Assembly: GCA_040757115.1 (NCBI GenBank)
Contig: JBFLYA010000035.1
Span: 1 to 25,428, forward strand
Origin: a bacterium
GTDB taxonomy: Bacteria; UBA9089; CG2-30-40-21; SBAY01
Reading direction: 5' to 3'
DNA length: 25,428 bases
The notes under the pieces were generated by a model, which did not search any database, was not told the DNA's origin, and saw nothing but the letters and a program-made list of their open reading frames with translations. Shown here piece after piece: positions 3,001 to 24,246 of the stretch; the first letter of the stretch is position 1, and the number at the start of each line of letters is the position of its first letter. The position numbers and the translations under genes are program-made.

Positions 3001-4585
3001 CAAAATTGCCTGATTTGCGGTCTATATCCATCTGGACCTCTGGCGGTGTCCTATCAACAATGACATCAACCATTTTCTCCATTGATTGATTGCCAACCGT
3101 ATCTACAGCGCGGAATCCAATTTGATGGTTACCTTCCTGTGAAATCGAGAATGCGCCCGTGTATCTCTTCCACTCCTCATTATCTATTTTGCATTGCACC
3201 TCCGCCACACCTGCGGCATTATCACTGGCGGCTAATGAAAATATGGTCTGCGGATGAACAAAACTGCCTGATTTGTGGTCTATATCAATCTGGACTTCTG
3301 GCGGTATGTTGTCAACCACGACGATAAACTTATCTATCTCTCCAGAGTTACCAAAGGCATCAACGCCTTTATATTTAATCGTATGAGTTCCTGCTTTGTT
3401 AAATGATATTGGCTGATGATAGGTATAAAAATCGTCGTTGTCTATAGCTGCTATGATGCGGACAATGCTGGTATCGGCGTCTAATGGTTTCAGGGTATAT
3501 TGGCAAGATATGTGGGCATAGAGAATGCTCTCCTTTTTAAATAGGGGGCTATCTGGCACTATTTCCAGCTGTAGTTTTCTAACAATCCTTAATATTCTGG
3601 CATTACTGAATTTGCCTTCAAGCCCGGATTTATCAATACTCCTCACACGCCAGTAGTATTTTCCTACGGGTAAGGTTGTAGAAACAACACTTGTTGATTC
3701 TGTGCCTTGGACTCTATAGACCACATTATTAAATGCCTCGTCTTTCGCTATCTCAAGGTAATATTTTGCCGCCTCAGGAACAGACTTCCATGAAAAGGTT
3801 AGCGTCAGGATACCTGTAATAAAATCATCTACCGGTTTAATTAATTCTGGAGATTTTGGAAGTGGTTTTGGAGGTGATGGTAGTTCTCCTTTGACGGATT
3901 GAATTCCAAAGCCGGCAGGGACATTGACAGCTTTGCCAGTAGATGATGCCAGAACCTCTCCTTGAAATACAGATATGCTGGAGAGGCCATCGGGTGTGTA
4001 TCCTATCTCGAATTCAGTTCCTCTAACCCCGCAAAAGACACCTGGGGTCTCAATCTCAAAATTAGAGCCAGTCGTCTTTGTTCCTTTAAACGACATTTTA
4101 CCGTGAAGGAGTTTTACCTTTGTATTGACTGCTTTAACCTTTTCCGCATAAACGCTGTGTTTAAGTACCAATGATGTCTCTGGTTTTAGTTGCAGGATAC
4201 TTTTATCCTCAAATTCAATTTGAGCCGTTGAATCTGGACCCACAACAACCTCATCATGGGGATAGACATTATCTCCTCTACGGAGATTAACATACTTATT
4301 TGTCCCAATCCTTTTAATTGTAACATCACCAAATACTTCCGTAACTTTCACCTGTGGCACTTCGGGTATTTTAATCATATCTCCGGGGAGAATAAAATGA
4401 GGATTTTTGAGTTTGTTATAATCGGCAATAGCCATCCATAACCACGGAGTCTGCAAATACTTTTCTGAGATATCCCACAATGTATCCCCGTCTTTAGTCT
4501 TGTGAATCAAGAGTTCTTGTGCAGAGACTAATGAGACTAAACTAACCATACAGGTTGTAAAAAGAAACATTCTAAAGATTTTCAT
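1..4585 (-). CDS. Giant exported LysM-FecR protein with OmpL47-like repeats (partial, C-terminus off the left edge)
   Basis: The frame is open from ATG 4585 down to base 1, at least 1528 codons, so the C-terminus lies outside the window. A strong AAGGAGG lies 8 bases before the ATG. Residues 1 to about 22 form a signal peptide (MKIF..., ending VSA before QELL). Residues 23-75 are a LysM domain (DGDTLWDIS, LPGDMIKIP). Residues 78-230 are a FecR domain (LLHGKMSF, TPGVFCGVRGTEFEI). About 238-335 is fibronectin-III-like (YYWRVRSIDKSG). A divergent Ig-like unit follows, then twelve full and one partial 86-residue repeats carrying PPEVQIDID, FVHPQT, KIDNEEWKRYTG and DTVGNQS, typical of OmpL47-type beta domains. 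LysM predicts peptidoglycan contact; the repeats would form a long surface or periplasmic stalk. The domain assignment is solid, but the biological role is inferred. Its leader contains an inserted palindromic element. Confidence 0.9.
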   Translation of the reverse strand, partial: MKIFRMFLFTTCMVSLVSLVSAQELLIHKTKDGDTLWDISEKYLQTPWLWMAIADYNKLKNPHFILPGDMIKIPEVPQVKVTEVFGDVTIKRIGTNKYVNLRRGDNVYPHDEVVVGPDSTAQIEFEDKSILQLKPETSLVLKHSVYAEKVKAVNTKVKLLHGKMSFKGTKTTGSNFEIETPGVFCGVRGTEFEIGYTPDGLSSISVFQGEVLASSTGKAVNVPAGFGIQSVKGELPSPPKPLPKSPELIKPVDDFITGILTLTFSWKSVPEAAKYYLEIAKDEAFNNVVYRVQGTESTSVVSTTLPVGKYYWRVRSIDKSGLEGKFSNARILRIVRKLQLEIVPDSPLFKKESILYAHISCQYTLKPLDADTSIVRIIAAIDNDDFYTYHQPISFNKAGTHTIKYKGVDAFGNSGEIDKFIVVVDNIPPEVQIDIDHKSGSFVHPQTIFSLAASDNAAGVAEVQCKIDNEEWKRYTGAFSISQEGNHQIGFRAVDTVGNQSMEKMVDVIVDRTPPEVQMDIDRKSGNFVHPQTKFSLIASDNAAGVAEVQCKIDNEEWKRYTGAFSISQEGSHQIGFRAVDTVGNQSKEKVIDVIVDHTPPEIKIDIDRKSGNFVHPQTKFSLIASDNAAGVAEVQCKIDNEEWKRYTGAFSISQEGSHQIGFRAVDTVGNQSKEKVIDVIVDHTPPEIKIDIDRKSGCFVHPQTKFSLIASDSAAGVAEVQCKIDNEEWKRYTGAFSIVQEGIHQIGFRAVDTLGNQSKEKIIDVIVDRTPPEVQMDIDRKSGSFVHPQTIFSLAASDSTAGVAEVLYKIDDKEWKKYTGAFSILQEGSHQIGFQAIDTVGNQSKENVLDIIVDNTPPEVKIDIDRKSGNFVHPQTKFSLIASDNAAGVAEVQCKIDNEEWKRYTGTFSILQEGSHQIGFRAIDTVGNQSKEKVIDVIVDNTPPEIKIDIDRKSGCFVHPQTKFSLIASDNAAGVAEVQCKIDNEEWKRYTGAFSIVQEGIHQIGFRAIDTVGNQSKEKTIDVIVDNTPPDVQMDIDRKSGSFVRSDTQFSLIGIDDAAGVAEVIVKIDNEAWMRYAGTFSIFQEGSHWIRFQAIDNVGNQSKEKIVNVIVDRTPPGIKMDIDHKSGCFVRSDTKFSLIASDDASGVAEFIVKIDNEAWKNYSGTFSLSQEGNHQIGFQAMDTLGNQSKEKIIDVIVDNTAPEVQMDIDRKSGSFVHPQTKFSLIASDNASGVDEVLYRLDNKEWKRYTDTFSISQEGIHQIEFRAIDSLGNQSKEQVTNVIVDQTPPVVKMDIDRKFGSFVHPQTGFSLTAIDELAGVAEVLCKIDNEEWKKYPGTFSISQEGGHRIGFQAIDNVGNPSKEQIIDVIVDSTPPEVQMDIDRKSGCFVHSQTKFSLLSRDDASGVMEVLFRIDNDEWKRYNAAFSIALEGSHQIEFRVADNIGNQSKEKVVNVIVDNTPPEIKIEIDRKSGCFVHPHTRFSIITSDNASGVAEVLCKIDDEEWKKYDATFSIAQEGRHKIRISAIDT
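211..3310 (-). repeat. Tandem 258-bp coding repeats (12 full units)
   Basis: The sequence around the VDNTPPE boundary recurs every 258 bp (near 211, 471, 728, 986, 1242, 1500, 1758, 2016, 2273, 2531, 2789, 3047 and 3305). Each unit encodes one 86-residue beta domain of the giant minus-strand protein; a thirteenth unit continues to base 1. All units keep exactly the same length and frame. The units between about 2270 and 3060 are nearly identical at the DNA level, while those toward the left edge differ more, which points to recent duplication or gene conversion in the N-terminal part of the array. Confidence 0.95.
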
Positions 4586-4605
4586 GATTATTACCTCCTT
4601 TTTTG

Positions 4606-4983
4606 GTAACCGTTCACCACAAGATGCCACAGAGACGCAGAGAAAAAATTAAAATCTATTCACCAGAAACAGAAATTTCCGTAAGCGTTCAGGTGGTGTA
4701 AGAAAAGGAGATATGGAAATAAAGGAGATAAGGGGATATATTTAGGAGTTTTTGGTGAAAGGATTAGGGTTAGGAGGCTGGTTTGGTTTAGGGGTTATAA
4801 AAGTTAGTCTTTTTGCATAACCATTTTGCCCAATTATCCAGGGAATTTATAATCTCCACATCTCCCCAATCCCCTTATCTCCCTTCTTACACTTCTAATA
4901 TATAACCTGAACGGTTACAAAAAAAGATATTTTCCTCTCTGTTTCTCTGCGTCTCTGCGGTAAAGGATTACCTGAACGGTTAC
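4606..4983. mobile_element. Composite palindromic element in the leader of the giant gene
   Basis: The left end GTAACCGTTCACC and right end TGAACGGTTAC are inverted, followed inward by CAGAGACGCAGAGAAA on the left and its complement on the right. A second inverted pair is nested inside: GTAAGCGTTCAGG at 4681 and TGAACGGTTAC ending at 4918, with purine-rich GGAGATAAGGGGATA arms. No 8-bp target duplication is visible on either pair. The element begins about 6 bases upstream of the ribosome-binding site of the minus-strand giant gene and lies between that site and its promoter, so it must be transcribed into the leader. Confidence 0.75.
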
Positions 4984-5098: not shown

Positions 5099-5212
5099 GT
5101 AATTGGATAATTGGTAACTAATCACCCGAATAGGGCTTCACGAAATTATAAAGTAAGTAATCGGTTAAATGGTAACTGGTAACTAATTACCATTCACCAG
5201 TTACCAATTACC
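5099..5212. repeat. Inverted heptamer-type repeat in the UPF0182 leader
   Basis: TAATTGGATAATTGGTAACTA on the left is answered by CAGTTACCAATTACC on the right, with further GGTAACTGGTAACTAATTACC symmetry inside. The right arm is built from 7-bp RTTACCA-like units, as upstream of rpsO and of the ADH synthase gene. It ends just before AAGGAGG, so a leader transcript could fold into a long hairpin next to the ribosome-binding site. Confidence 0.7.
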
Positions 5213-5234
5213 AAAAAAAGGAGGCAAAGGTAAA

Positions 5235-9155: not shown

Positions 9156-9397
9156 GTAACTATTCACCGCAGAGACGCAGAGACGCAGAGAAAAAAATTA
9201 AAAACTATTTGTCATACGTTTCATTCCATCTCTGATTTTCATCAGAGCAAACTTTTTAGGACTGACATATCATGATTGATTAACAAATTTGGTTTTGATG
9301 TCCTATGTATTAGCATGAGTGCCTCAATAATCTTTTCTGTTATCTGATTTATTTCCATGTCTTCTCTGCGAACTCTTGCGTCTCTGCGGTAAATTAC
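9156..9397. mobile_element. Palindromic element carrying a decayed GxxExxY gene
   Basis: The left end is GTAACTATTCACCGCAGAGACGCAGAG. The right end is, in complement, GTAATTTACCGCAGAGACGC. Between them lies a minus-strand remnant of a GxxExxY gene whose ATG is 39 bases inside the right end. No clean 8-bp target duplication is seen (AAATAAGT on the left, CCCTGCTA on the right), so this copy may be old or rearranged. It fills the convergent gap between mobA and the sugar isomerase gene. Confidence 0.7.
9210..9358 (-). pseudogene. Internally deleted, frameshifted GxxExxY (PDDEXK_3-type) gene remnant
   Basis: From ATG 9358 the minus strand encodes MEINQITEKIIEALMLIHRT, matching the N-terminus of GxxExxY proteins, whose usual text is of the form ITEKIIG...EVHR.LGPG. 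It then passes at once into NLLINHDMSVLKSLL and stops at 9242. LLIN...VLK is the usual C-terminal text of the family. A shifted frame then continues as MKIRDGMKRMTN, again C-terminal-like. The family is normally about 125 residues, so about 80 central residues, including the nuclease-like core, are missing. The N-terminal match and the relation to the enclosing element are clear; the C-terminal match is from memory of the family. Confidence 0.65.
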
Positions 9398-9403
9398 CCC
9401 CTG

Positions 9404-10969
9404 CTACGAATTTTCAGCCAGAAGTTTAGCCGAACGGTCACGGACAAATTTAACCTCTGGATTTGAACCCGGGTCAATATGCTTCATGATAGAATAACAG
9501 AAAGTTGTATCTGCCCATAATTGCCCAAGGATTGCCGAATGACTAAGTGTTGGAGCACCTGGGATACTAATCAATAAGGTTGGCATTAATTCAGCAAAAC
9601 GAGTGTAGTTTGCCCGAGCAAGAATTACCTCTTCATCTCCATACTGAAGTCCAGCATGAGCAGGATTGATAGGGTCAATTTTACGCAAGACCATTGGAGG
9701 AAGATTTTCACTATAAAAATTTGTCCGAAGGAGAAAAAATCCTATTTTCGTCTTATAGTTGGCAAGAATTCCCTCAATATTCATATGTGAATCGCGTGGT
9801 AATCCAAAATAGCGTGAGCAAAGAAAATCATTACCATTTTTGTTGACTCCTTCATTCCAGAACTGAATAAACTCATCTGCTGAAAAAGAAAGAGATTCAT
9901 CATTGCACCCTAAGTAAATATGGTTGGTTTTATTAAGCAATTGGTGAAGGTATAGAAATTTTGCCAGGACCATTGGTAGAGAAAAATGGTTAGAAATATC
10001 AAAATATTGAATAGCAGTTTCAATTTCCTTCCAATATGATAGCGTATTCATTCCCGCGATATGCATTGGGGCAAGTAAAATTGGTGTTTTATTTCGGCCA
10101 AAACGTCCAGACACTTCATCAGGAAGTGAAAGAACCAAATTATTATCTCGTAGTCCAATCTCACGAAGTGGGCCGGAATTCGCAAACACTATACGAGAAG
10201 CATTTCTCGGTGTATACTCATGAATTTTAATGGTTTCTTCAGTTTTTCCGCTACGAGAAAATTCCAGAAATAAAGTATTCTCAACTGATGAATCCTGAGG
10301 AAGAAAACTCAATTGTCTGGGAGAATTTATAATTAGCCAGGTAGTTTTGCGGTTGGGATTGTTATTATTAATATATGAAACCAGATGATTAAATTGTTCA
10401 TTTGCACCAATTCCTGAATTAATGATATAGCGTGGATACCTTGATTTAAAATGCTCTGAAATATAACGCTCAACTTTGGGAGCGTCAAGACTCATATACT
10501 CATTATAGTATTTAAAAACATCTTGCCGATAAAGTTTTACAAGAGGGTCATTTATTGTTTTTTCAGCACTACTTTGAAAGAGTTCAATTACCACTGAATA
10601 GAGATTTTTAGGTATCAATAATGGACTGTTCAATGGCGGTGCAGATTCTATTGAAAATAAATGTGGGAAAGGATTTAATCGTTCCATACCTTCGCAAAGA
10701 ACAATTTCTTTGGTTTCTTCAAATGAAATGCTATCTTTAACATCTTCTAATTTAGACTGGGCAACAATATCACTCAATCCTAACTCGCATAACAAAGACT
10801 CTGTCTCTTCAGAAGTTGTCCGTAATGCTTCTGATAGATTAGAGATTAATATCTTTGGTGATAAAGCCCCTCGAACAGCCTCCCAGAGATTTTCTTCTTC
10901 TAATCCCTTATCCTTAACTTTATAGATTAGTTCTTTTATGAGATTATTTAAATTAGATTCCTTTTTCAT
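9404..10969 (-). CDS. Phosphoglucose-isomerase-like SIS-domain sugar isomerase
   Basis: About 521 residues, near glucose-6-phosphate isomerase size. An SIS-type phosphosugar site is visible in FLEFSRSGKTEETIKIHE. VSGRFGRNKTPILLAPMHIAGM resembles the PGI active-site strand with its conserved GGRFS-like text. The C-terminal HIDPGSNPEVKFVRDRSAKLL has the PGI-like distribution of charged residues. ATG 10969 (MKKESNLNNL) was chosen over 11029 because GGGAG lies at a good distance upstream and it avoids a 53-base overlap with the cupin gene; it begins 8 bases after the cupin stop. The pairing with a phosphomannose-isomerase-type cupin suggests a glucose-6-P / fructose-6-P / mannose-6-P interconversion unit. 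It is clearly divergent from textbook PGI, so the exact sugar is uncertain. Confidence 0.7.
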   Translation of the reverse strand: MKKESNLNNLIKELIYKVKDKGLEEENLWEAVRGALSPKILISNLSEALRTTSEETESLLCELGLSDIVAQSKLEDVKDSISFEETKEIVLCEGMERLNPFPHLFSIESAPPLNSPLLIPKNLYSVVIELFQSSAEKTINDPLVKLYRQDVFKYYNEYMSLDAPKVERYISEHFKSRYPRYIINSGIGANEQFNHLVSYINNNNPNRKTTWLIINSPRQLSFLPQDSSVENTLFLEFSRSGKTEETIKIHEYTPRNASRIVFANSGPLREIGLRDNNLVLSLPDEVSGRFGRNKTPILLAPMHIAGMNTLSYWKEIETAIQYFDISNHFSLPMVLAKFLYLHQLLNKTNHIYLGCNDESLSFSADEFIQFWNEGVNKNGNDFLCSRYFGLPRDSHMNIEGILANYKTKIGFFLLRTNFYSENLPPMVLRKIDPINPAHAGLQYGDEEVILARANYTRFAELMPTLLISIPGAPTLSHSAILGQLWADTTFCYSIMKHIDPGSNPEVKFVRDRSAKLLAENS

Positions 10970-10976
10970 ACAAATT

Positions 10977-11345
10977 TTACTCCCGTCCATAAATATCTTC
11001 ATATCTCTCAATATCATTTTCATCTGCATATCCGAAGGATATCTCTAATACTCTTCCTTTTTTGCCAAGCGATGAAAGGCGGTGTTTCATATTTCTTAAG
11101 ATGACAATCTCATCTCCTGGTTTTGGCTTTATAATTTTATCCTCTAACTCCACCTGTAGTCCATCGTCAATAATGACCCATAGTTCATCTCTTTTTTTAT
11201 GAGATTGTCTACTCAACATTTGATTTGGTTTGACGGTGAGAATTTTAACCGTGCATTCCTCATTATGGGCATATTGTTTAAAATTGCCCCATGGTCTAAT
11301 ATCCTGTATAATTTTTTTTCTAATATCATCTTCTCTTAAACTCAT
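10977..11345 (-). CDS. Mannose-6-phosphate isomerase-type cupin
   Basis: A single-domain, 122-residue cupin resembling the C-terminal domain of type II phosphomannose isomerases. RPWGNFKQYA begins the domain. LSRQSHKKRDELWVIIDDG carries the metal-binding His/Glu set of cupin motif 1. PGDEIVILRNMKHRL is motif 2 with the last His. It probably interconverts mannose-6-phosphate and fructose-6-phosphate, or binds a nucleotide sugar intermediate, in the cytoplasm. GAGG lies just before ATG 11345, and a good promoter lies at 11389-11416. It is followed within 8 bases by the PGI-like gene, so the two are almost certainly co-expressed. Confidence 0.8.
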   Translation of the reverse strand: MSLREDDIRKKIIQDIRPWGNFKQYAHNEECTVKILTVKPNQMLSRQSHKKRDELWVIIDDGLQVELEDKIIKPKPGDEIVILRNMKHRLSSLGKKGRVLEISFGYADENDIERYEDIYGRE

Positions 11346-11388
11346 TTTGTATCCTCACCCTCTCTTTTGAAAAAAACATCGTTGTCAT

Positions 11389-11416
11389 ATTATACCACAA
11401 TTTCAATCTATGTCAA
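11389..11416 (-). promoter_or_regulatory. Promoter of the cupin-PGI-like operon
   Basis: On the minus strand TTGACA (11416-11411) and TATAAT (11394-11389) have a 16-base spacer. Transcription would start near 11382, about 37 bases before the cupin ATG. Confidence 0.75.
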
Positions 11417-11445
11417 TTGAAATTTTATACATACACTAAAATTTG

Positions 11446-11635
11446 GTAACCGTTCAGGCTATATATCAAAAGTGTAAGAAAGGGGATAAGGAGATAAGAG
11501 TGATATGGAGATAAGATAATAGAATATAGATTGAAATTTATAGAAATAGGTAGAAATTGATTGTGGAAAACAACAAATTTCCATAAATTTCTATTAATTT
11601 CAATTTTTGTCGTGCTCTTCGTGGTGAATAGTTAC
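11446..11635. mobile_element. Chimeric palindromic element with two unlike ends
   Basis: The left end is GTAACCGTTCAGGCTATATAT followed by GTGTAAGAAAGGGGATAAGGAG, the same arm as at 4860-4918 in complement. The right end is the other type, GGTGAATAGTTAC preceded by GTGCTCTTCG, as in the element at 16435. The middle is an A/T-rich inverted repeat (GAAATTTATAGAAATAGG against its complement). No target duplication is seen, as expected for a product of recombination between two element types. Confidence 0.6.
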
Positions 11636-11643
11636 CCAGGGGA

Positions 11644-11790
11644 TTATTGTTTGCCTTTACCAGACAACTGATTGAGGTAGATAATATCCTGAAAAACCTG
11701 TCTCAACCTTACCAAATCCGCCTGGATTCTTCTTAGAACTGCTACCTTATTTTGTTCCAGCAACCCCTCTTTTTCCCTCTTTAATCCATA
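11644..11790 (-). pseudogene. Possible C-terminal fragment of an unrecognised helical protein
   Basis: The minus strand is open for 48 codons ending at TAA 11646-11644, with Leu/Glu/Lys/Arg spacing typical of a coiled coil (LLEQNKVAVLRRIQADLVRL, then FQDIIYLNQLSGKGKQ). No ATG or GTG is available, and an in-frame TGA lies immediately upstream. It may be the tail of a lost gene, perhaps truncated when the neighbouring element arrived. I do not recognise the family. The rest of the gap (11800-11960) shows no gene. Confidence 0.3.
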
Positions 11791-11964
11791 TCATATTTTT
11801 ATCATATTGACAATCTTTTTTTTGACTCCAATATTTTGATATATCAGGAGACACAGGAGAGAACTGTCCTTTTTAATGTCCCCTACCATCTTGTCCCCGA
11901 ACTGTATCTTAAAAATAAAAATCATGAAAATTTACTCTTCAGAACTGAAAAATTGATTTATTAC

Positions 11965-11992
11965 TTGACAATTATCTCCTATTTATGATAAT
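11965..11992 (+). promoter_or_regulatory. argH promoter with an almost absent leader
   Basis: TTGACA at 11965-11970 and GATAAT at 11987-11992 have a 16-base spacer. Transcription would start at about 11999, only about 6 bases before the argH ATG at 12005. No ribosome-binding site is present in that interval. Confidence 0.65.
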
Positions 11993-12004
11993 CTTAAAAG
12001 AACA

Positions 12005-13357
12005 ATGAATCCAGTTCGTAGTAGATTTTCTAAAAAACTGAATAAAGAGGTTGAATCTTTTACCTCTTCTATTGATATTGATAAAAAATTCTATAAGTAT
12101 GATATTACTGGCAGTCAAGCTCATGCAAAAATGCTCGGTAAATGCGGTATTATCCCTCAACAAGAAGCAGAAGAGATAATACAGAGATTAGAAGAGATTA
12201 AAACCGAACTTGAAGAAGGAAATTTTCAATTCAGCCCGGAATTAGAAGATATTCATATCCATATTGAAAAAGCCTTAATAGATAAATTGGGTAAAACGGG
12301 TGAAAAACTTCATACTGCCAGGTCTCGAAATGACCAGGTAGCCATAGATACAAGGCTTTATCTCCGAGAAGAAATAAAAGAGATAATCGAACTAATAAGA
12401 ACCTTACAAAAATCTATCATCAATATAGCCCAGGAAAATTTAGAGACGATTATGCCCGGTTATACCCATTTACAGCATGCCGAACCAGTTCTTTTCTCGC
12501 ATCATTTAATGGCTTACTTCTGGATGCTTCAACGGGATGTAGATAGATTACAAGATGGCTATAAGCGGGTAAATGTTATGCCACTCGGGAGTTGTGCTCT
12601 GGCTGGAACATCCTTACCTATAGACCGCCAATGTGTTGCTGAATTACTTGAGTTTCCCCAAATAAGTGAAAATAGCATTGATACGGTTAGCGACCGAGAT
12701 TATATCATTGAATTTTCAGGTAATATTTGTTTGGTGATGATGCATCTATCAAGGTTAAGTGAGGAGTTAATTCTGTGGTCAACACAAGAGTTTGGATTTA
12801 TTGAGTTAGATGAGGCATTTTGCACCGGCAGTAGCATTATGCCACAAAAGAAAAATCCAGATGTTTGTGAATTAATTAGAGGAAAAACAGGTATAATTTA
12901 CGGACATCTTGTTTCATTACTCACGATGATGAAAGGATTACCACTATCTTATAATCGAGATATGCAGGAGGATAAATATCCATTACTTGATACCGTAGAA
13001 ATAGTTAAATTAGCATTATCCATCTTTGGTAAGATGCTCTTAACGATGAAGATAAAGAAAGAAAGGATGTTATCTATCCTGAGTGGTGATTTTTCAACCG
13101 CGACTGAAATGGCTAATTATTTAGTCAAAAAAGGTATTCCTTTCCGTCAGGCACATCAAATAGTAGGTAAGATATGCCAGATGGGGAAACCATTAGAAGT
13201 TTTGACATTGGAAGAGTTACAGCATTTCTCACCCGTATTTTCAGAAGATGTGCTTAAAATATTAAAACCTCAGGAGTCTATAAAACAAAAAATATCTTAT
13301 GGGGGCACGGGAGTAATTCAAGTAAAGGAACAAATTGAATTAGCTAAAAAAGCATGA
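12005..13357 (+). CDS. argH: Argininosuccinate lyase
   Basis: Cleaves argininosuccinate to arginine and fumarate, the last step of arginine synthesis; a cytoplasmic homotetramer of the fumarase/aspartase superfamily. At 450 residues it is near the normal 460. HTARSRNDQVA lies near residue 100. The superfamily signature GSSIMPQKKNPD starts at residue 275, with the catalytic Ser in the mobile loop. YTHLQHAEPVLFSH is also family-typical. One oddity is the N-terminus, MNPVRSRFSKKLNKEVESF, where most homologues have a LWGGRFSK text, so the usual Gly-Gly is missing. The start follows its promoter almost directly, suggesting near-leaderless translation. No other arg gene is adjacent. Confidence 0.95.
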   Translation: MNPVRSRFSKKLNKEVESFTSSIDIDKKFYKYDITGSQAHAKMLGKCGIIPQQEAEEIIQRLEEIKTELEEGNFQFSPELEDIHIHIEKALIDKLGKTGEKLHTARSRNDQVAIDTRLYLREEIKEIIELIRTLQKSIINIAQENLETIMPGYTHLQHAEPVLFSHHLMAYFWMLQRDVDRLQDGYKRVNVMPLGSCALAGTSLPIDRQCVAELLEFPQISENSIDTVSDRDYIIEFSGNICLVMMHLSRLSEELILWSTQEFGFIELDEAFCTGSSIMPQKKNPDVCELIRGKTGIIYGHLVSLLTMMKGLPLSYNRDMQEDKYPLLDTVEIVKLALSIFGKMLLTMKIKKERMLSILSGDFSTATEMANYLVKKGIPFRQAHQIVGKICQMGKPLEVLTLEELQHFSPVFSEDVLKILKPQESIKQKISYGGTGVIQVKEQIELAKKA

Positions 13358-13401
13358 ATTAAGAGAAGGTAGGGAAACGGGGAAAGGAAGAAAGGGAGAA
13401 A

Positions 13402-13463
13402 AGGCTGAAGGCTGAAGGAAACAGCGTTCAAAACTTCAGCCTATACCCTTCAGCCTTCAGCCT
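13402..13463. repeat. Perfect 17-bp inverted repeat of GGCTGAA heptamers after argH
   Basis: AGGCTGAAGGCTGAAGG at 13402-13418 is perfectly inverted at 13447-13463, and each arm is two 7-bp units. It could act as a transcription terminator or RNA-stabilising hairpin behind argH, but no U-run follows. Just beyond, TATTTTCAGGAGAA occurs twice (13463-13476 and 13596-13609), flanking a 119-base stretch that includes the palindrome TGAACCGCTGGTTCA. This may be the direct-repeat scar of another insertion before the ferredoxin gene. Confidence 0.65.
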
Positions 13464-13625
13464 ATTTTCAGGAGAATGCTCATGAACCGCTGGTTCACAA
13501 ATGAGGATGAAAATAGTGGTAGGAGATAGAAGATGGGATGTAAGGAGATAGGCGTGAGGAGTGATGTTTTCTTTACTCTCTACTTTCTACTTCCTTATTT
13601 TCAGGAGAAAGGAGGAAATAAAGAA

Positions 13626-13802
13626 ATGCCTGCTATAGTTGACACAGAAAAATGTGATGGCTGTGGGACATGTGTAGAGGTTTGTCCAACAGAGGCAATC
13701 GCGCTTGAGGATGATGTGGCACAAGTCAATGAGGATGAATGCACAGAATGTGGCACTTGTGTCGAAGAATGCCCAAATGGCGCTATCTCAATGTCTGAAT
13801 AA
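13626..13802 (+). CDS. 2[4Fe-4S] ferredoxin
   Basis: A 58-residue clostridial-type ferredoxin, an electron carrier in the cytoplasm. Two perfect CxxCxxCxxxCP motifs are present ([12 protein letters not shown] from residue 10 and [12 protein letters not shown] about 28 residues later), enough for two [4Fe-4S] clusters. The protein is acidic, as usual. GGAGG lies ten bases before ATG 13626. An in-frame upstream ATG at 13533 would add 31 residues unlike any ferredoxin and is rejected. The gene stands alone between two palindromic regions. Its partner is not indicated by context, although radical SAM enzymes encoded in this window need low-potential electrons. Confidence 0.95.
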
Positions 13803-13812
13803 GAAATAAGAG

Positions 13813-13908
13813 ATAAGGGAACAAGTCTTACCTGGATTTTCGATTGCGGATTTTGGATTTATTTTTCAATCTAAAATCCAAAATCTAAAATTAAACTTGT
13901 TCCCTTAT
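13813..13908. repeat. Inverted repeat after the ferredoxin gene, interrupted by a later insertion
   Basis: ATAAGGGAACAAG at 13813-13825 is perfectly inverted at 13896-13908. Inside, GATTTTGGATTT faces three 7-bp units ATCYAAA. The outer part of the right arm continues only after the element at 13911-14028 is removed, so this palindrome existed before that insertion. It could serve as the ferredoxin terminator or RNA 3' end. Confidence 0.6.
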
Positions 13909-13910
13909 TA

Positions 13911-14028
13911 GTAAGCGTTCAGCGGTCAGCAAGATTAGGAAAATCAAGGCATCAGCAAAGTTATGATTCTACTTGCTTTTTTTCGGAGAAGGTATAACTC
14001 TCTTAAAATCTGATAGCTGAACGCTTAC
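13911..14028. mobile_element. 118-bp MITE-like element with a perfect 8-bp target duplication
   Basis: It has perfect 13-bp terminal inverted repeats, GTAAGCGTTCAGC and GCTGAACGCTTAC. It is flanked on both sides by CCTTATTA (13903-13910 and 14029-14036). It has no coding capacity and sits upstream of the heavy-metal exporter gene. Confidence 0.85.
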
Positions 14029-14052
14029 CCTTATTAACTCTTTTCTCAAGAA

Positions 14053-15096
14053 ATGGAAATTATAATGGAAATAGTAACTCACACACTAAATCATAGCTTG
14101 TTGATAACCGCCTTTGTTTTTGTGATGATGATGCTTGTGGATTATATTGAGGTTTTAACTCAAGGCAAGATGAGTCTCCTTATAAAAGGTGGTTATTGGA
14201 GGAAATATATAATCTCTTCGGCATTAGCCTCAACACCAGGTTGTCTGGGGGCATTTATGAATGTCTCTTTTTATGTTCATGGGTTTTTAAGTTTTGGTGC
14301 ATTGGCAGGTGGAATGATTGCCGCCTCTGGTGACGAAGCATTTGTTATGCTGACTATGTTTCCAAAACAAGCATTATTCCTATTTGTCATTCTTTTTATC
14401 TTAGGCATTATCTCAGGTTGGATAGTAGATAAAATTATACCTATTTTAAAGATTAAATCCTCTCAGATATGCGAACTTTCAGAACTGCACTTAGAAAAAG
14501 AATGTAAAATTCCTGATGTCCGGGGCATAATTGAACACTTTAGAAATATTTCATTTACAAGATTCCTTTTACTCGCCATATTTTTAATGATAATTACTTA
14601 CGGGTTAGGGGGAAAAATGATTGAGGATGAAAATGAACCCTGGTTAAAAATGGTATTTATCTTGTTAGCCATATTATCTACCGCCATTGTCATTAGTGCC
14701 CCAGACCACTACTTAGAAAAGCATATCTGGAATCATCTGGTTAAAAAACATCTCTGGCGAGTATTTTTATGGACATTTTTTACGCTTTTAGCCGTGGATA
14801 TGGGACTTAAATTTTGGGACATTGAGGCTTTTATTAAAACTAATATGTTCTGGGTATTCCTCATTGCGGCTTTAGTTGCCTTAGTTCCAGAATCCGGTCC
14901 TCATCTTATCTTTGTGATGATGTTTGCAAAAGGAATTATCCCTTTTTCCGTCCTTCTAACAAGTTCTATAATTCAGGATGGTCATGGGATGTTACCACTT
15001 CTATCTTATACCATAAAAGATGCCTTATGGATAAAATCGATTAATTTTGTCATTGGTTTATTTTGTGGTTTAATCCTTTATCTGGTAGGTTTTTAA
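14053..15096 (+). CDS. Putative 10TM heavy-metal exporter / manganese transporter (ArsP_2-like)
   Basis: A 347-residue polytopic membrane protein with about ten helices. TPGCLGAFMNVSFYVHGFLS followed by SFGALAGGMIAASGDEAFVM, and a similar second-half segment LVPESGPHLIFVMMFAKGII, give the two-repeat layout of the ArsP_2 (putative 10TM heavy-metal exporter, also annotated as putative manganese transporter) family. Such proteins are thought to move metal ions or oxyanions across the inner membrane; the substrate cannot be told from sequence. The start may be ATG 14053 or 14065; neither has a convincing ribosome site. It is followed four bases later by def and then a radical SAM gene, likely one transcript. 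A MITE-like element lies 24 bases upstream. Confidence 0.72.
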   Translation: MEIIMEIVTHTLNHSLLITAFVFVMMMLVDYIEVLTQGKMSLLIKGGYWRKYIISSALASTPGCLGAFMNVSFYVHGFLSFGALAGGMIAASGDEAFVMLTMFPKQALFLFVILFILGIISGWIVDKIIPILKIKSSQICELSELHLEKECKIPDVRGIIEHFRNISFTRFLLLAIFLMIITYGLGGKMIEDENEPWLKMVFILLAILSTAIVISAPDHYLEKHIWNHLVKKHLWRVFLWTFFTLLAVDMGLKFWDIEAFIKTNMFWVFLIAALVALVPESGPHLIFVMMFAKGIIPFSVLLTSSIIQDGHGMLPLLSYTIKDALWIKSINFVIGLFCGLILYLVGF

Positions 15097-15100
15097 TATT

Positions 15101-15625
15101 ATGGCTATTTTACCAATAAAAGTATATCCTGACCCTATCCTCCGTAAAAAGGCGAAAGAGATAACTAAAATAAGAAAAAGAACATTAAATTTAATCAATA
15201 ATATGATTGAAACAATGTATGCGGCAAAGGGTATTGGTCTGGCGGCTAATCAAGTGGGGGTTTTGCACCGTATTATCATTATGGATACCAGCCAAAATGA
15301 AAAAGATAAAAACCATCATAATCCTGTTGTGCTGATTAATCCGAAAATTTTATCTTGCGAAGGAGAAAATGTCGGGGAAGAAGGATGCCTGAGTTTTCCT
15401 GAAATAAGGGGGGAGATAAGAAGGGCAACGCAAGTAAGAGCGAAGGCTTTGAATGTTAATGGCGAAACCATAGAAATAGAGGCGACAGGATTACCCTCTC
15501 GAGTCCTTCAACACGAAATTGACCATCTCAATGGAATAGTTTTTATCGATCGTATGGAAAAACAAACACGGGAATCCCTTAAAAATCAACTGGAAATGCT
15601 AAAGAAGAGGAAAGTCTCTACATGA
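15101..15625 (+). CDS. def: Peptide deformylase
   Basis: Removes the N-formyl group from nascent proteins. All three family motifs are present: GIGLAANQVG (residues 44-53), EGCLSFP with metal ligand Cys96, and QHEIDHLNG with the HExxH metal ligands and catalytic Glu (138-142). Length 174 residues, normal for the family. The second motif has Phe where Val is more usual (EGCLSVP). The ATG follows the exporter stop by four bases without its own ribosome site, suggesting translational coupling. It overlaps the next gene by four bases (ATGA). Confidence 0.96.
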   Translation: MAILPIKVYPDPILRKKAKEITKIRKRTLNLINNMIETMYAAKGIGLAANQVGVLHRIIIMDTSQNEKDKNHHNPVVLINPKILSCEGENVGEEGCLSFPEIRGEIRRATQVRAKALNVNGETIEIEATGLPSRVLQHEIDHLNGIVFIDRMEKQTRESLKNQLEMLKKRKVST

Positions 15626-16392
15626 AATTTAAATATATCTATGGCCCTGTGGCTTCCTGGAGATTAGGCAGTTCTCTGGGAATAGATTTGCTTTCGCAGA
15701 AGGAGAAAATATGTAATTTTGACTGCTGTTATTGTCAGATTGGAAGGAATTTAAAATACCTTACCCAAAGGAAATTATATGTTCCCACACAAGAGATAAT
15801 TGAAGAAATAAAAAGATTACCTGATTGTCAGATAGATTATATTACTTTTTCTGGTAGAGGTGAATCTACACTCGCCATAAATTTAAGTGAAACAATAACT
15901 GCAATAAAAAAACTCCGAAAAGAACCTATTGCCGTTTTAACTAATTCAACCTTAATCAATAAAGTTGATGTCCGCCAGGAATTAACATTGGCAGATTTCG
16001 TTATTCTCAAATTAGATGCCTTTTCACAGGAAACACTTGAATTAATAAATAACCCCGCCATAGGAATTAAATTTGATGAGATTTATAATGGCATAAGGGC
16101 TTTTAGAGAAGAATATCGAGGGAAATTAGCACTTCAAATTATGTTTATTGATGAGAATAAGAATAGTGCCCGGAGATTATTTCAATTAGCCCGAGAAATC
16201 CAACCAGACCAAGTGCAAATAAATACACCTTTGCGACAATGTAAAGTAAAACCTTTATCACCAGAAGAAATTTTCTTGATAAAAAGATATTTTAAGGGAT
16301 TAAATATCATCTGTGTTTATGATGCAGAAGATAGAGATGTAACACCTATTAGCCAATCTCAAACCTTAAAAAGAAGAGGAACGGTGATGTAG
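15622..16392 (+). CDS. Radical SAM protein (COG0731-like)
   Basis: A 256-residue radical SAM enzyme. The [4Fe-4S]-SAM motif is CNFDCCYC (Cys-x3-Cys-x2-Cys) near residue 31, preceded by YGPVASWRLGSSLGIDLL, the family's usual N-terminus. YITFSGRGESTL fits the SAM-binding strand. It resembles COG0731 Fe-S oxidoreductases related to the Tyw1 group, but lacks extra domains; its substrate is unknown. It starts in the last codons of def (ATGA overlap), so the two are translationally coupled. A palindromic element carrying a GxxExxY remnant follows 42 bases after the stop. Confidence 0.85.
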   Translation: MKFKYIYGPVASWRLGSSLGIDLLSQKEKICNFDCCYCQIGRNLKYLTQRKLYVPTQEIIEEIKRLPDCQIDYITFSGRGESTLAINLSETITAIKKLRKEPIAVLTNSTLINKVDVRQELTLADFVILKLDAFSQETLELINNPAIGIKFDEIYNGIRAFREEYRGKLALQIMFIDENKNSARRLFQLAREIQPDQVQINTPLRQCKVKPLSPEEIFLIKRYFKGLNIICVYDAEDRDVTPISQSQTLKRRGTVM

Positions 16393-16434
16393 AGTAAATT
16401 AAGTCTGTCAAAAGGTTGAAAGATTTAAAAAAAA

Positions 16435-16670
16435 GTAACTATTCACCACGAAGGGTACGGAGAGCACGAAGTGAAATTTGATGAATTATCGAATAGAGTC
16501 ATTGGATGCGCTATAGCGGTGCATCGAACTCTTGGGCCAGGTTTGCTTGACACCGTGAAGAGTGATAATTCACAATTCACAATTGACAATTCACCATTCA
16601 CCATTATTAAGGAAATTTAGGGAAGAAATTGTGAATTGTGAATGGTGAATGGTGAATGGTGAATAGTTAC
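16435..16670. mobile_element. 236-bp palindromic element with a GxxExxY remnant
   Basis: Terminal inverted repeats are GTAACTATTCACCA and TGGTGAATAGTTAC, flanked by eight A residues on each side (16427-16434 and 16671-16678), consistent with an 8-bp target duplication although low-complexity. The left half starts with CACGAAG-type text and holds the N-terminus of a GxxExxY gene. The right half is five 7-bp GTGAATK units (16631-16665), whose complement lies at 16570-16605. Confidence 0.8.
16471..16620 (+). pseudogene. Truncated GxxExxY (PDDEXK_3-type) gene, N-terminal part only
   Basis: From GTG 16471 the frame reads VKFDELSNRVIGCAIAVHRT and then LGPGLLDTVK, matching the N-terminal 30 residues of GxxExxY proteins (ELS..IIG.AIEVH..LGPGLLESVY). 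The match ends exactly where ATTCACAATTCACA-type heptamers begin. The frame then runs through the repeats to TAG 16618-16620. The nuclease-like core is absent, so this is a dead copy. The reading frame starts 36 bases inside the enclosing element. Confidence 0.75.
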
Positions 16671-16694
16671 AAAAAAAATTGGTTAATCACTTAA

Positions 16695-17021
16695 CAACAA
16701 ACTTTTGCACGAAAATATTTATAACTTTCTCAATAAACATATCGCTCCTATGGAGCTAATTTGATGTTGAGACGATAAAGCTATAAACATCTCGCCCTTA
16801 CAGGGCTGAATATATTTTCTAAACTCCGTTAGGAGTGATATATTTGTAGACTATGATAATCCTTAAAGAATTCAGCTCCGTAGGAGCGAAATGTTTAACT
16901 GTGATTTTTGTGACAGAAGAATAAACAATCTTAATCTTTAAGTTCTTTAATTTTAATATCTTAAATATTATTTGTGTTTATTCGTAGATTTATACATTAA
17001 ATTTCCTGCAAAAGTTTGTTG
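16695..17021. repeat. Inverted-repeat region with GCTCC/GGAGC mini-palindromes; right arm forms the -35 box of the RRM gene
   Basis: CAACAAACTTTTGCA (16695-16709) is perfectly inverted at 17007-17021. Between them lie AAACATATCGCTCCTATGGAGCT and its near-complement AGCTCCGTAGGAGCGAAATGTTT, with two weaker units between (CGCCCTTACAGGGCTG and CTCCGTTAGGAGTG). Such GCTCC-type palindromes are dispersed extragenic repeats in many bacteria. No open frame is convincing in 16630-17220. Confidence 0.7.
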
Positions 17022-17596: not shown

Positions 17597-17829
17597 CATT
17601 ACAAATTCACAAAGTGTATTTTTATCATCTCCATTTTCCCTTATCTAAAATACTTGCCACGAAGATACTTATAAAGTATAAATTTTAAACCCTACTCATT
17701 TCTCGCTACTGTTATACGGGTTAAAGATGGTATTAAAAGAATAGTAACCGTTCAGGGATATAGCCACAGAGTCACAGAGAACACAGAGGGAATATATAAC
17801 CACGAATGAACACGAATAATAAAAAGATT

Positions 17830-17999
17830 CGACCTGTGCGATTAGATTAATTCATCGCAGAGACGCAAAGGAAAAATAAATGTAAAATGTAAAATAGGAA
17901 ATGAAAAATGGGAAATTTTAGGACTTCGCAAGACTCATTATCTTTCAGTTATACATTTTCATTTTACATTATCCATTTTACATTTAACCGCACAGGTCG
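17830..17999. mobile_element. Nested element B1 (170 bp) with 8-bp target duplication
   Basis: Perfect 11-bp ends CGACCTGTGCG and CGCACAGGTCG are flanked by AAAAGATT (17822-17829 and 18000-18007). The sister element at 21219-21458 has a single AAAAGATT at the same place and no insert. Inside are a CGCAGAGACGCAAAG segment and ATGTAAA-type heptamers in inverted orientation. Confidence 0.9.
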
Positions 18000-18007
18000 A
18001 AAAGATT

Positions 18008-18072
18008 TGTAGTGCGAGACTTTAGCCTCGCTTCTGGCAAGCAGGAAAGCGAACCTAATGGTTCGCACTACA
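18008..18072. repeat. TGTAGTGCGA...TCGCACTACA double-hairpin repeat
   Basis: Two short palindromes (GCGAGACTTTAGCCTCGC and GCGAACCTAATGGTTCGC) lie between inverted ends TGTAGTGCGA and TCGCACTACA. The same unit occurs in the opposite orientation within 21312-21374. It resembles dispersed REP-like repeats. Confidence 0.65.
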
Positions 18073-18211
18073 TTTATCGAATGTCACAGGTTAATTCGTA
18101 TCCATTTGTGGCTAATTTCTCTAATTCTCTGTGAACTCTGTGCCTCTGTGGCTGAACGGTTACAAAGAATAATCCTTCTATAACAAATCGGGGTTCGGAT
18201 TCAGGGGTTCG

Positions 18212-20544: not shown

Positions 20545-21222
20545 ATGATAGATGGAATTTTGAATATTAATAAACCTGCGGGGATGACTTCCCACGATGT
20601 CGTTCAATGTATTCGAAGATTGATTAACCAGAAAAAGGTTGGGCATGCAGGAACTTTAGACCCACAGGCAGAAGGGGTTTTAATTCTTCTTTTAGGTAAA
20701 GCAACAAAATTATCCGAAAGCCTGAAAAGTGATTCTAAAGAATATCTTGCAGAAATGAAATTGGGAATTAAAACAACGACTCAAGATGCCTGGGGACAAA
20801 TAATTGAACAAAAATCTAACTTTACTATTCAAAAAAAGGATATTGAAAAGGTACTTTTAGATTTTGAGGGTGAGATAAATCAAATTCCACCTATGTTTTC
20901 TGCAATACATCATGAGGGTAAAAGGTTATATGAATTAGCTCGGCTTGGAAAGGAAGTGGAACGACAACCTCGAAAGGTAAAGATATTTGAAATCAAACTT
21001 TTAAATTTTATACATCAGGATGAATTTAGATTTAAAGTTACTTGTTCTTCCGGAACTTACATTCGGACTTTATGTGCAGATATAGGTGAGGCTTTAGGGG
21101 TAGGGGGACATTTAACCTCATTGAAAAGGATTAAAAGTGGCAATTTCAAAATCGAAGATTCGATTGGCTTAAAAGATTTAATAGAAGGGAAAATTAAGGT
21201 AGAAGAGGTTCTTTTATCGTAA
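20545..21222 (+). CDS. truB: tRNA pseudouridine-55 synthase
   Basis: Makes pseudouridine 55 in the T-loop of tRNAs. The catalytic Asp39 lies in GHAGTLDPQAEGVL. The N-terminal INKPAGMTSHDVV, PPMFSAIHHEGKRLYELAR and CSSGTYIRTLCADIG are family motifs. At 225 residues it lacks the C-terminal PUA-like extension of E. coli TruB (314). The stop codon TAA (21220-21222) is provided by the end of the inserted element A2. Restoring the target site gives an original end of ...EEVLL with TGA, one residue shorter and only 8 bases before ribF. No ribosome-binding site is obvious at ATG 20545. Confidence 0.95.
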   Translation: MIDGILNINKPAGMTSHDVVQCIRRLINQKKVGHAGTLDPQAEGVLILLLGKATKLSESLKSDSKEYLAEMKLGIKTTTQDAWGQIIEQKSNFTIQKKDIEKVLLDFEGEINQIPPMFSAIHHEGKRLYELARLGKEVERQPRKVKIFEIKLLNFIHQDEFRFKVTCSSGTYIRTLCADIGEALGVGGHLTSLKRIKSGNFKIEDSIGLKDLIEGKIKVEEVLLS

Positions 21223-21458
21223 GCGTTCAGCCACAGAGGCACAGAGTTCACAGAGAATTAAGGGAATTAGCCAGAAATGCACACGAATTAACCTCTGACA
21301 TCCCATAAATGTAGTGCGAACCTTTAGGTTCGCCTTTTGGCTTGCCAGAAGTGAGGCTACAGCCTCGCACTACAAATCTTTTTGTATTTGTGTTCATTCG
21401 TGGTTATATATTCCCTCTGTGTTCTCTGTGACTCTGTGGCTATATCTTGAACGGTTAC
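21219..21458. mobile_element. Element A2 (240 bp) inserted between truB and ribF
   Basis: Ends are GTAAGCGTTCAG and TGAACGGTTAC, with flanks CTTTTATC (21211-21218) and CTTTTATG (21459-21466), an 8-bp duplication with one mismatch. It is element A1 in reverse orientation without the nested B element, so it shows the empty B site. It contains the TGTAGTGCGA double-hairpin repeat. No coding capacity is seen. Confidence 0.88.
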
Positions 21459-21474: not shown

Positions 21475-22407
21475 ATGAAAATTTTCTGGAGAATTCCAGC
21501 TCAATTTGAATATGAAAATGTGGGATTAACGATAGGTGTATTTGATGGAGTGCATTTAGGTCATCAAAAAATTATCACAGAACTGATTAATTCTTGTAGA
21601 AAAAAAGGACTTACAAGTCTTATTTTGACTTTTGAGATTCATCCAAGAAAAATATTATCAGCAACTATGCCTGCTCTATTAATTACCCTTGACCAGAGAT
21701 TAAACATTATTTCTCAGCTGGGTATGGATGTGTGCATAATTACTGATTTTGAACAAGAGATAATGAACCTTGAGGCAACGGAATTCATAGAAAAAGTGCT
21801 CATTGATAAATTAAAAATGAAACAAATGTGGATTGGAACGAATTTTTTATTTGGAAGAGGAAGAAAAGGGGATGTCCAGTTATTACAAGAGTTAAGTGCA
21901 AAAAAAGGGTTTAAATTACAGGTAGTTGAGCCAGTTAAATTTGAAGATGAAATTGTTAGTAGCACAAGGATAAGGGAATATCTAAAGCAAGGGGAGGTAG
22001 CAAAGGCAAATTTACTTCTATCCCGACCTTATACGATTGGAGCGGAAGTTATCCATGGCACAAAAAGAGGAAGAATCCTTGGTTACCCTACCGCAAACTT
22101 AAAATGGGATGAAGAAGTTTTATTACCTGAAAAAGGTGTCTATGCGGTCAGGGTAAAAATGGATGATGAAAGATATGAAGGTGTGGCTAATCTGGGCTAT
22201 CGTCCAACATTTGGAGAAGAAAAAGAACTTTATTTTGAAGTCCATATCTTCGATTTTAATCAGGAAATTTATTTTAAAGAATTAAATGTTTCTTTTATAA
22301 CAAGAATACGGGATGAGAAACCGTTTAAAGACCAGGATAGTTTAATTAGACAATTAAACGAGGATGAAAATAAAGCAAAACAAATATTAAAAGCAAGTAA
22401 GTGGTAA
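21475..22407 (+). CDS. ribF: Bifunctional riboflavin kinase / FAD synthetase
   Basis: Converts riboflavin to FMN and FMN to FAD. The N-terminal nucleotidyltransferase domain has GVFDGVHLGHQKII (from residue 21). STRIREYLKQGEV follows near residue 160. The C-terminal flavokinase domain has GTKRGRILGYPTANLKW. At 310 residues it is full length. No ribosome site is visible before ATG 21475. The original arrangement was an 8-base gap after truB, so translation was probably coupled to truB before element A2 intervened. Its own stop codon TAA lies inside the heptamer repeat GGTAACTAATTACC that follows. Confidence 0.95.
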   Translation: MKIFWRIPAQFEYENVGLTIGVFDGVHLGHQKIITELINSCRKKGLTSLILTFEIHPRKILSATMPALLITLDQRLNIISQLGMDVCIITDFEQEIMNLEATEFIEKVLIDKLKMKQMWIGTNFLFGRGRKGDVQLLQELSAKKGFKLQVVEPVKFEDEIVSSTRIREYLKQGEVAKANLLLSRPYTIGAEVIHGTKRGRILGYPTANLKWDEEVLLPEKGVYAVRVKMDDERYEGVANLGYRPTFGEEKELYFEVHIFDFNQEIYFKELNVSFITRIRDEKPFKDQDSLIRQLNEDENKAKQILKASKW

Positions 22408-22430
22408 CTAATTACCATTTACCAATTACC
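22403..22430. repeat. RTTACCA-type heptamer repeat before rpsO
   Basis: GGTAACTAATTACC followed by ATTTACCAATTACC, partly palindromic, ending 8 bases before AAGGAGG of rpsO. It matches the repeats upstream of the UPF0182 and ADH synthase genes. Confidence 0.7.
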
Positions 22431-22450
22431 AAATACAAGGAGGTGCTCAA

Positions 22451-24162: not shown

Positions 24163-24164
24163 GA

Positions 24165-24230
24165 ATTGGTAATTAGTTACCAATTACCAATTACCAGTTA
24201 CCAGTTACCAATTACCAGTTACCAATTTTC
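24165..24230. repeat. Seven tandem RTTACCA heptamers before the ADH synthase gene
   Basis: From 24176 to 24224 the 7-bp unit GTTACCA or ATTACCA occurs seven times in a row, preceded by AATTGGTAATTA in inverted orientation. It begins three bases after the CCA of tRNA-Cys and ends a few bases before AAGGAGG of the next gene. It is open in the frame of that gene, but translation of it is unlikely. Confidence 0.9.
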
Positions 24231-24246
24231 AAGGAGGTTTTCAGTA

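Follow-up and report, generated by a model that had tools for sequence, protein, structure and literature searches.

How do pieces of one nuclease-fold gene come to lie inside two separate palindromic elements of the same contig? The window considered here, meaning the whole stretch of 25,428 nucleotides that was analysed (contig JBFLYA010000035.1 of assembly GCA_040757115.1, from a bacterium of the GTDB lineage UBA9089; CG2-30-40-21; SBAY01), holds two such elements, at 9156-9407 and 16435-16670. A first-pass annotation had described both and had proposed that the protein encoded by the gene is what mobilises them. Both elements are real, and each contains a remnant of a gene of the GxxExxY (PDDEXK_3) family. 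We consider it very likely, however, that the elements of the window and of its genome (G000) are non-autonomous transposons of the IS66 type (miniature inverted-repeat transposable elements, MITEs) with a GxxExxY cassette as their cargo. The two elements are built from the following parts.

9156-9407, minus strand: GTAAC-type element; contains a minus-strand GxxExxY remnant with an internal deletion and a frameshift; right tip decayed
9156-9190, plus strand: left inverted arm, with tip GTAACTATTCAC followed by a CGCAGAG heptamer array
9245-9358, minus strand: 5' part of the GxxExxY gene (MEINQITEKII...), out of frame after that
9366-9407, plus strand: right inverted arm, its tip (CTAC, 9404-9407) decayed
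16427-16434, plus strand: left copy of the 8-bp target duplication AAAAAAAA
16435-16670, plus strand: complete GTAAC...GTTAC element; 5' fragment of a GxxExxY gene, joined to an inverted heptamer hairpin
16471-16617, plus strand: GxxExxY 5' fragment from GTG (MKFDELSNRVIGCAIAVHRTLGPGLLDT...), running into heptamers and then a TAG stop
16572-16667, no strand assigned: inverted heptamer arrays ATTCACA/ATTCACC ... GTGAATG; arms 16572-16605 and 16634-16667
16671-16678, plus strand: right copy of the 8-bp target duplication AAAAAAAA

The first element begins with GTAACTATTCACCGCAGAG. It had been placed at 9156-9397; the left end stands, whereas comparison with a same-genus genome (G001) moves the right end to near 9407. 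The element aligns to both ends of an intact 459-bp GxxExxY element (L001), to positions 1-77 at 87% (E 6e-19) and to positions 359-453 at 82% (E 8e-18), and its minus-strand peptide MEINQITEKII... matches the starts of intact GxxExxY proteins at 69% (E 1.5e-6). In a profile search, the 38-residue piece of this remnant taken alone matched neither PF13366 nor TIGR04256, and its GxxExxY identity is therefore settled by the alignment to intact elements; of the two remnants assigned to PDDEXK_3, only the fragment at 16435 gives profile matches. At the same site in G001 (contig C235) lies a GTAAC element with a longer GxxExxY remnant. Because the site is occupied in both genomes, it was probably filled before they parted, and deletion or conversion between copies could explain why the contents now differ. 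The stop codon (TAG, 9404-9406) of a convergent minus-strand open reading frame (ORF) at 9404-11029 comes from the decayed tip of the element, and in G001 the corresponding ORF seems to stop at the TAA provided by the intact tip.

The second element, 16435-16670, has perfectly inverted tips, GTAACTATTCACC...GGTGAATAGTTAC, with A8 on either side. As had been reported, its GxxExxY fragment lies on the plus strand and is read from a GTG at 16471: the first 28 codons of the gene are joined to the inverted heptamer array. The peptide covers profile positions 1-26 (TIGR04256 E 1e-4; PF13366 E 4e-4, just under the curated cut-off). Many copies, 93-99% identical, occur genome-wide, and the copies are present in both G000 and G001. 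The site itself is empty in G001, where contig C187 reads straight through a single A run with no element. With a homopolymer as target, this one duplication carries less weight than the element-wide statistics. Both window elements fold into hairpins far more stable than their shuffles, with z -6.0 for 9156 and z -6.8 for 16435. Downstream of the second element, a further stretch of about 340 bp (16690-17019) has copies in G000 (C337) and G001 (C241) and is absent from the orthologous G001 site.

The statistics of the wider family were drawn from 392 kb of unselected G000 sequence and from individually retrieved loci, in fragmented assemblies where copies at contig ends are possibly miscounted. 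The tip pattern occurs 1065 times in G000, against 22 for its reversed control, with tips paired in inverted orientation; the ends of the window elements are not due to chance. These transposon ends are common to hundreds of short hairpin elements in G000, of which about every second one sampled is a decayed GxxExxY carrier: the unselected sequence holds 44 complete elements, with GxxExxY sequence in 22 (4 of 440 control fragments) and exact 8-bp duplications at 18. The genome gives 65 PF13366 matches, about 16 of them near full length. Intact or near-intact cassettes between GTAACYRTTCA-type tips measure 459-563 bp and follow the layout anticipated by the first-pass annotation, namely end, short leader, GxxExxY gene and end. 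Its proposal that the shorter elements are internal deletions of such cassettes was also borne out. A 193-bp copy consists of positions 1-77 and 339-459 of L001, and a 292-bp element joins positions 1-254 and 403-459 of an intact element; among the loci examined, 292-bp copies occur at six places, three of them with exact duplications. The flanks of gene-bearing elements likewise contain exact 8-bp duplications, at L011 and L092, which have open frames, and at L015, which has one TGA. In one orthologous pair, an intact cassette in G001 (L093, C17) corresponds to a bare arm pair in G000 (C5, near 22.4 kb), and the sole difference is a single internal deletion of about 400 bp. Such orthologous intact and deleted copies show the rise and decay of MITEs with gene cargo.

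To judge from the sequences, a known type of transposase, that of the IS66 family, probably moves the elements. Across 93 distinct complete elements, exact flanking matches peak at 8 bp (32/93, with 0.05 expected), and other duplication lengths are at or near background. IS66 ends start with GTAAGCG, or with GTAACCG in some Pseudomonas members with passenger genes, and IS66 insertion gives 8-bp duplications (PMC11946415, PMC12888890). An IS66-type transposase of G000 (L081; PF03050 E 2e-39) lies between the ends GTAACCGTTCAGGTA...TACCTGAACGGTTAC, and relatives encode IS66-type transposases (L166, L167 and L168) with GTAAC-type ends on both sides, the frames of L166 and L167 being open. Given the 8-bp peak, the match to IS66 ends and the transposases with such ends, we take IS66-type transposition in trans to be the mover. 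The mobilising role that the first-pass annotation gave to GxxExxY is unsupported for these elements, whose ends and 8-bp duplications are IS66 signatures with matching transposases in the lineage. We likewise rejected GxxExxY as the maker of the 8-bp duplications: the ends and the length of the duplications are those of IS66, and there is a transposase that has these ends. Deletion derivatives that lack an intact GxxExxY gene have spread.

Cassettes of the same kind also occur in two further end classes. The L008 type, deletion copies included, has ends of the form ACTCGATRTTCAAG (ACTCGAT ends) and 3-bp duplications at 8 of 13 elements, with 1.1 expected; a search based on L008 returned family copies and no orthologous empty site. 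Cassettes of the L007 type are enclosed by TTCGACCTGTG ends; here, 4-bp duplications at 6 of 16 elements (1.1 expected; few elements) are probably real. Because one kind of cassette rides in three different end classes, GxxExxY looks like cargo.

The account that we propose has three parts. First: the cassette is a small PD-(D/E)XK nuclease-fold gene between two inverted short-repeat arrays, made of the heptamer CRCNRAG or a variant of it, and from either strand a hairpin can form whose loop contains the gene. Second: in this lineage, cassettes would have come, by a route that we infer, to lie between IS66-type ends (GTAA[CG]YRTTCA), and a transposase, presumably of the IS66 family and acting in trans, would have moved them with 8-bp target duplications. 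Third: internal deletions then gave rise to many gene-less or gene-fragment elements, both window elements included. These transposons resemble IS66 and passenger-carrying IS66 (tIS66) elements (PMC11946415, PMC12888890) in their GTAA-type ends and 8-bp duplications, in having matching transposases in the lineage, and in the precedent of passenger genes. They differ in being without a transposase, in carrying a GxxExxY cassette within inverted heptamer arrays, and in their hundreds of tips and many deletion derivatives.

Several observations weigh against this account. Exact duplications are missing from 61 of the 93 complete elements. In the unselected sample, roughly one complete element in two has no detectable GxxExxY sequence, and some elements may thus have another origin than a cassette. 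Some cassettes (e.g. L006, L012, L088, L093 and L097) have no recognised outer ends, and another process must therefore explain them. The sole near-complete IS66-type transposase found in G000, L081, has two stop codons, and no recognisable 8-bp duplication surrounds any transposase copy examined.

The inverted arrays themselves reach far beyond this lineage. We compared the inverted-repeat match between the two flanks of each gene with the 95th percentile of swapped flanks. This arm test was passed by 42 of 59 GxxExxY genes from the window's phylum and others, against 0 of 35 control ORFs. A second set, from named genomes, was picked by similarity to one GxxExxY subfamily (A2) and left 77 usable loci of 80; 47 passed and 30 failed, against 0 of 99 control ORFs passing. 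These loci span, among others, Planctomycetota, Acidobacteriota, Pseudomonadota, Bacteroidota, Cyanobacteria, Chloroflexota, Verrucomicrobiota, Spirochaetota and methanogenic archaea. Each arm is a series of C[AG]CN[AG]AG (CRCNRAG) units, mainly CACAGAG, CGCAAAG, CGCAGAG and CACAAAG, set 1-3 bases apart with a period of 8-10. Both arms are present and inverted at 44 of the 77 named loci (0 of 99 control ORFs), and the upstream array alone is found at 53 of 77 (shuffle mean 0.4); as the heptamer pattern was defined after the first locus set, the named set is close to, though not fully, an independent test. At three loci (L107, L098 and L123) the upstream array has the opposite of the usual orientation.

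Presence of the arrays also tracks presence of the gene. Of the 23 genomes with GxxExxY, 21 contain the three-unit pattern CRCNRAGNCRCNRAGNCRCNRAG, as do 3 of the 38 without the gene (Fisher 3.6e-11, uncorrected for relatedness); outside the window's phylum the counts are 8 of 10 and 1 of 32 (p 3e-6, again uncorrected). Inverted array pairs without a gene, which exist in other phyla as well, were read in four genomes (G058, G042, G034 and G019); those of G058 are members of a repeat family that continues outside the arms with sequence of its own. Together, GxxExxY and its inverted-repeat surroundings across bacteria and archaea look like an unrecognised gene-plus-hairpin system. A literature search with literal arm sequences and with nuclease and palindrome keywords found no prior description of palindromic surroundings of GxxExxY. 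The name is scarce in the literature searched, with a passing mention beside a reverse transcriptase; the family is widespread, yet no function for it was found in that literature. Arrays found almost only in genomes with GxxExxY, and flanking the gene in many phyla and in archaea, give the family a concrete candidate substrate.

The proteins encoded by intact cassettes are members of the known family, as seen for L011 (PF13366 E 8e-36; TIGR04256 E 1.5e-37) and L001 (PF13366 E 1.4e-46; TIGR04256 E 3.8e-48). All 45 aligned proteins (A3) have D64, E74xK76 and Q88, and Y92 is nearly invariant. The AlphaFold2 model, made for the protein of L247, has a mean predicted local distance difference test score of 97, and its VIA-align neighbours are mainly nucleases of the PD-(D/E)XK fold, with SSO0001 first (Z 9.5) and the Holliday junction resolvase Hjc at Z 7.1. 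Foldseek gave no match at E <= 0.001 with this model, and a sequence search of solved structures gave no match to the protein. The model and the conserved residues support a PD-(D/E)XK nuclease fold with conserved catalytic residues; the Z score of SSO0001 speaks for the predicted fold only, not for a substrate.

The cross-phylum association of GxxExxY with inverted heptamer arrays leaves room for a nuclease role at the hairpin. A broader form of this idea, which we hold tentatively and consider possible rather than probable, is that GxxExxY and inverted CRCNRAG arrays make up an independent pan-prokaryotic mobile or selfish system of nuclease and hairpin, whose PD-(D/E)XK enzyme would recognise its own palindromes and disperse or maintain them, with the four-helix S23/IVP genes and their 7-mer arrays as a parallel second branch. 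It would be the nuclease counterpart of the RAYT/REP pairing of repetitive extragenic palindromes (REPs) with a transposase. RAYT transposases are thought to disperse REPs, and REP/REPIN systems consist of dispersed palindromes and a gene associated with the same palindromes. The GxxExxY gene is similarly flanked by palindromes that are dispersed in the genome. Unlike RAYTs, which are HUH tyrosine transposases, GxxExxY is a PD-(D/E)XK protein by profile and model, and its arms are tandem heptamers.

A narrower proposal, and to us a rather unlikely one, is that GxxExxY itself recognises the inverted arrays, cuts at the hairpin and disperses it, the IS66-type ends being a later local addition. 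Such a role would fit the arm-test and array counts, the restriction of arrays largely to genomes with the gene, the solo hairpins of other phyla, and the invariant catalytic residues in a confident model near SSO0001 and Hjc. The junctions tell otherwise: insertions in G000 end at IS66-type ends and not at the arms, the solo elements of G058 have their own outer sequence, and no insertion junction was found to fall at the end of an arm. At the site of L097 (G001, C211), the G000 counterpart (L195, C75:15082-15167) is no clean empty target and instead holds an unrelated gene-less AGTAGAG hairpin.

We think it improbable that the arms act in RNA, with the transcript forming a long stem around a GxxExxY frame that is processed by GxxExxY or RNase III as in 23S rRNA intervening sequences, dispersal being incidental. 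In the Coxiella intervening sequence, inverted ends form a 28-bp stem with an S23p ORF in the loop (PMC4990558), the same layout as in the cassette. Inverted arrays of short repeats likewise enclose S23/IVP genes in this genome and in others: among S23/IVP (PF05635) loci (L136-L165), 22 of 28 exceed the swapped-pair 95th percentile for inverted flanking arrays. Hairpins sometimes directly follow the stop codon (L093 and L097). The cassette ORF is GxxExxY and not S23p, and the S23 arrays are mostly contiguous 7-mers of other sequence (e.g. AGTCGTA, CTCGATG and AGAAGAC), in contrast to the 8-10 period of the GxxExxY heptamers. Against the RNA reading, the window elements lie between predicted protein genes, and gene-less derivatives with 8-bp duplications indicate movement at the DNA level.

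That arrays and gene merely co-occur because genomes rich in all kinds of repeats tend to have both is very hard to sustain, for although S23/IVP genes correlate with the arrays too, more weakly (21/32 vs 3/29), and relatives are not phylogenetically independent, GxxExxY still predicts arrays among genomes with S23 genes (19/21 vs 2/11), the association holds outside the window's phylum, and the arrays directly flank the gene.

Five more elements with related ends lie in the window.

4681-4918, no strand assigned: GTAAGC/GTTAC element belonging to the 237-bp class; its relatives show weak GxxExxY similarity (E about 7e-4)
11446-11635, no strand assigned: chimeric GTAAC element with left end of GTAACCGTTCAGG and right end of GTAACTATTCACCACGAAG type
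13911-14028, no strand assigned: GTAAGC...GCTTAC element of 118 bp with exact 8-bp duplication CCTTATTA; no GxxExxY sequence found in it
17744-18163, no strand assigned: GTAAC element of 420 bp with exact 8-bp duplication AAAGAATA and CACAGAG heptamer arms
21219-21458, no strand assigned: GTAAGC/GTTAC element of 240 bp, duplication bases matching at 7 of 8

Outside the GTAAC-tipped elements, intergenic TGGTAAC/TGGTAAT heptamer arrays, partly inverted, lie at 5167-5214, 22392-22439 and 24164-24232. The minus-strand ORF at 2-4630 contains 86-residue tandem repeats, with 13 copies of a 258-nt unit in 2-3398 at 71-80% DNA identity.

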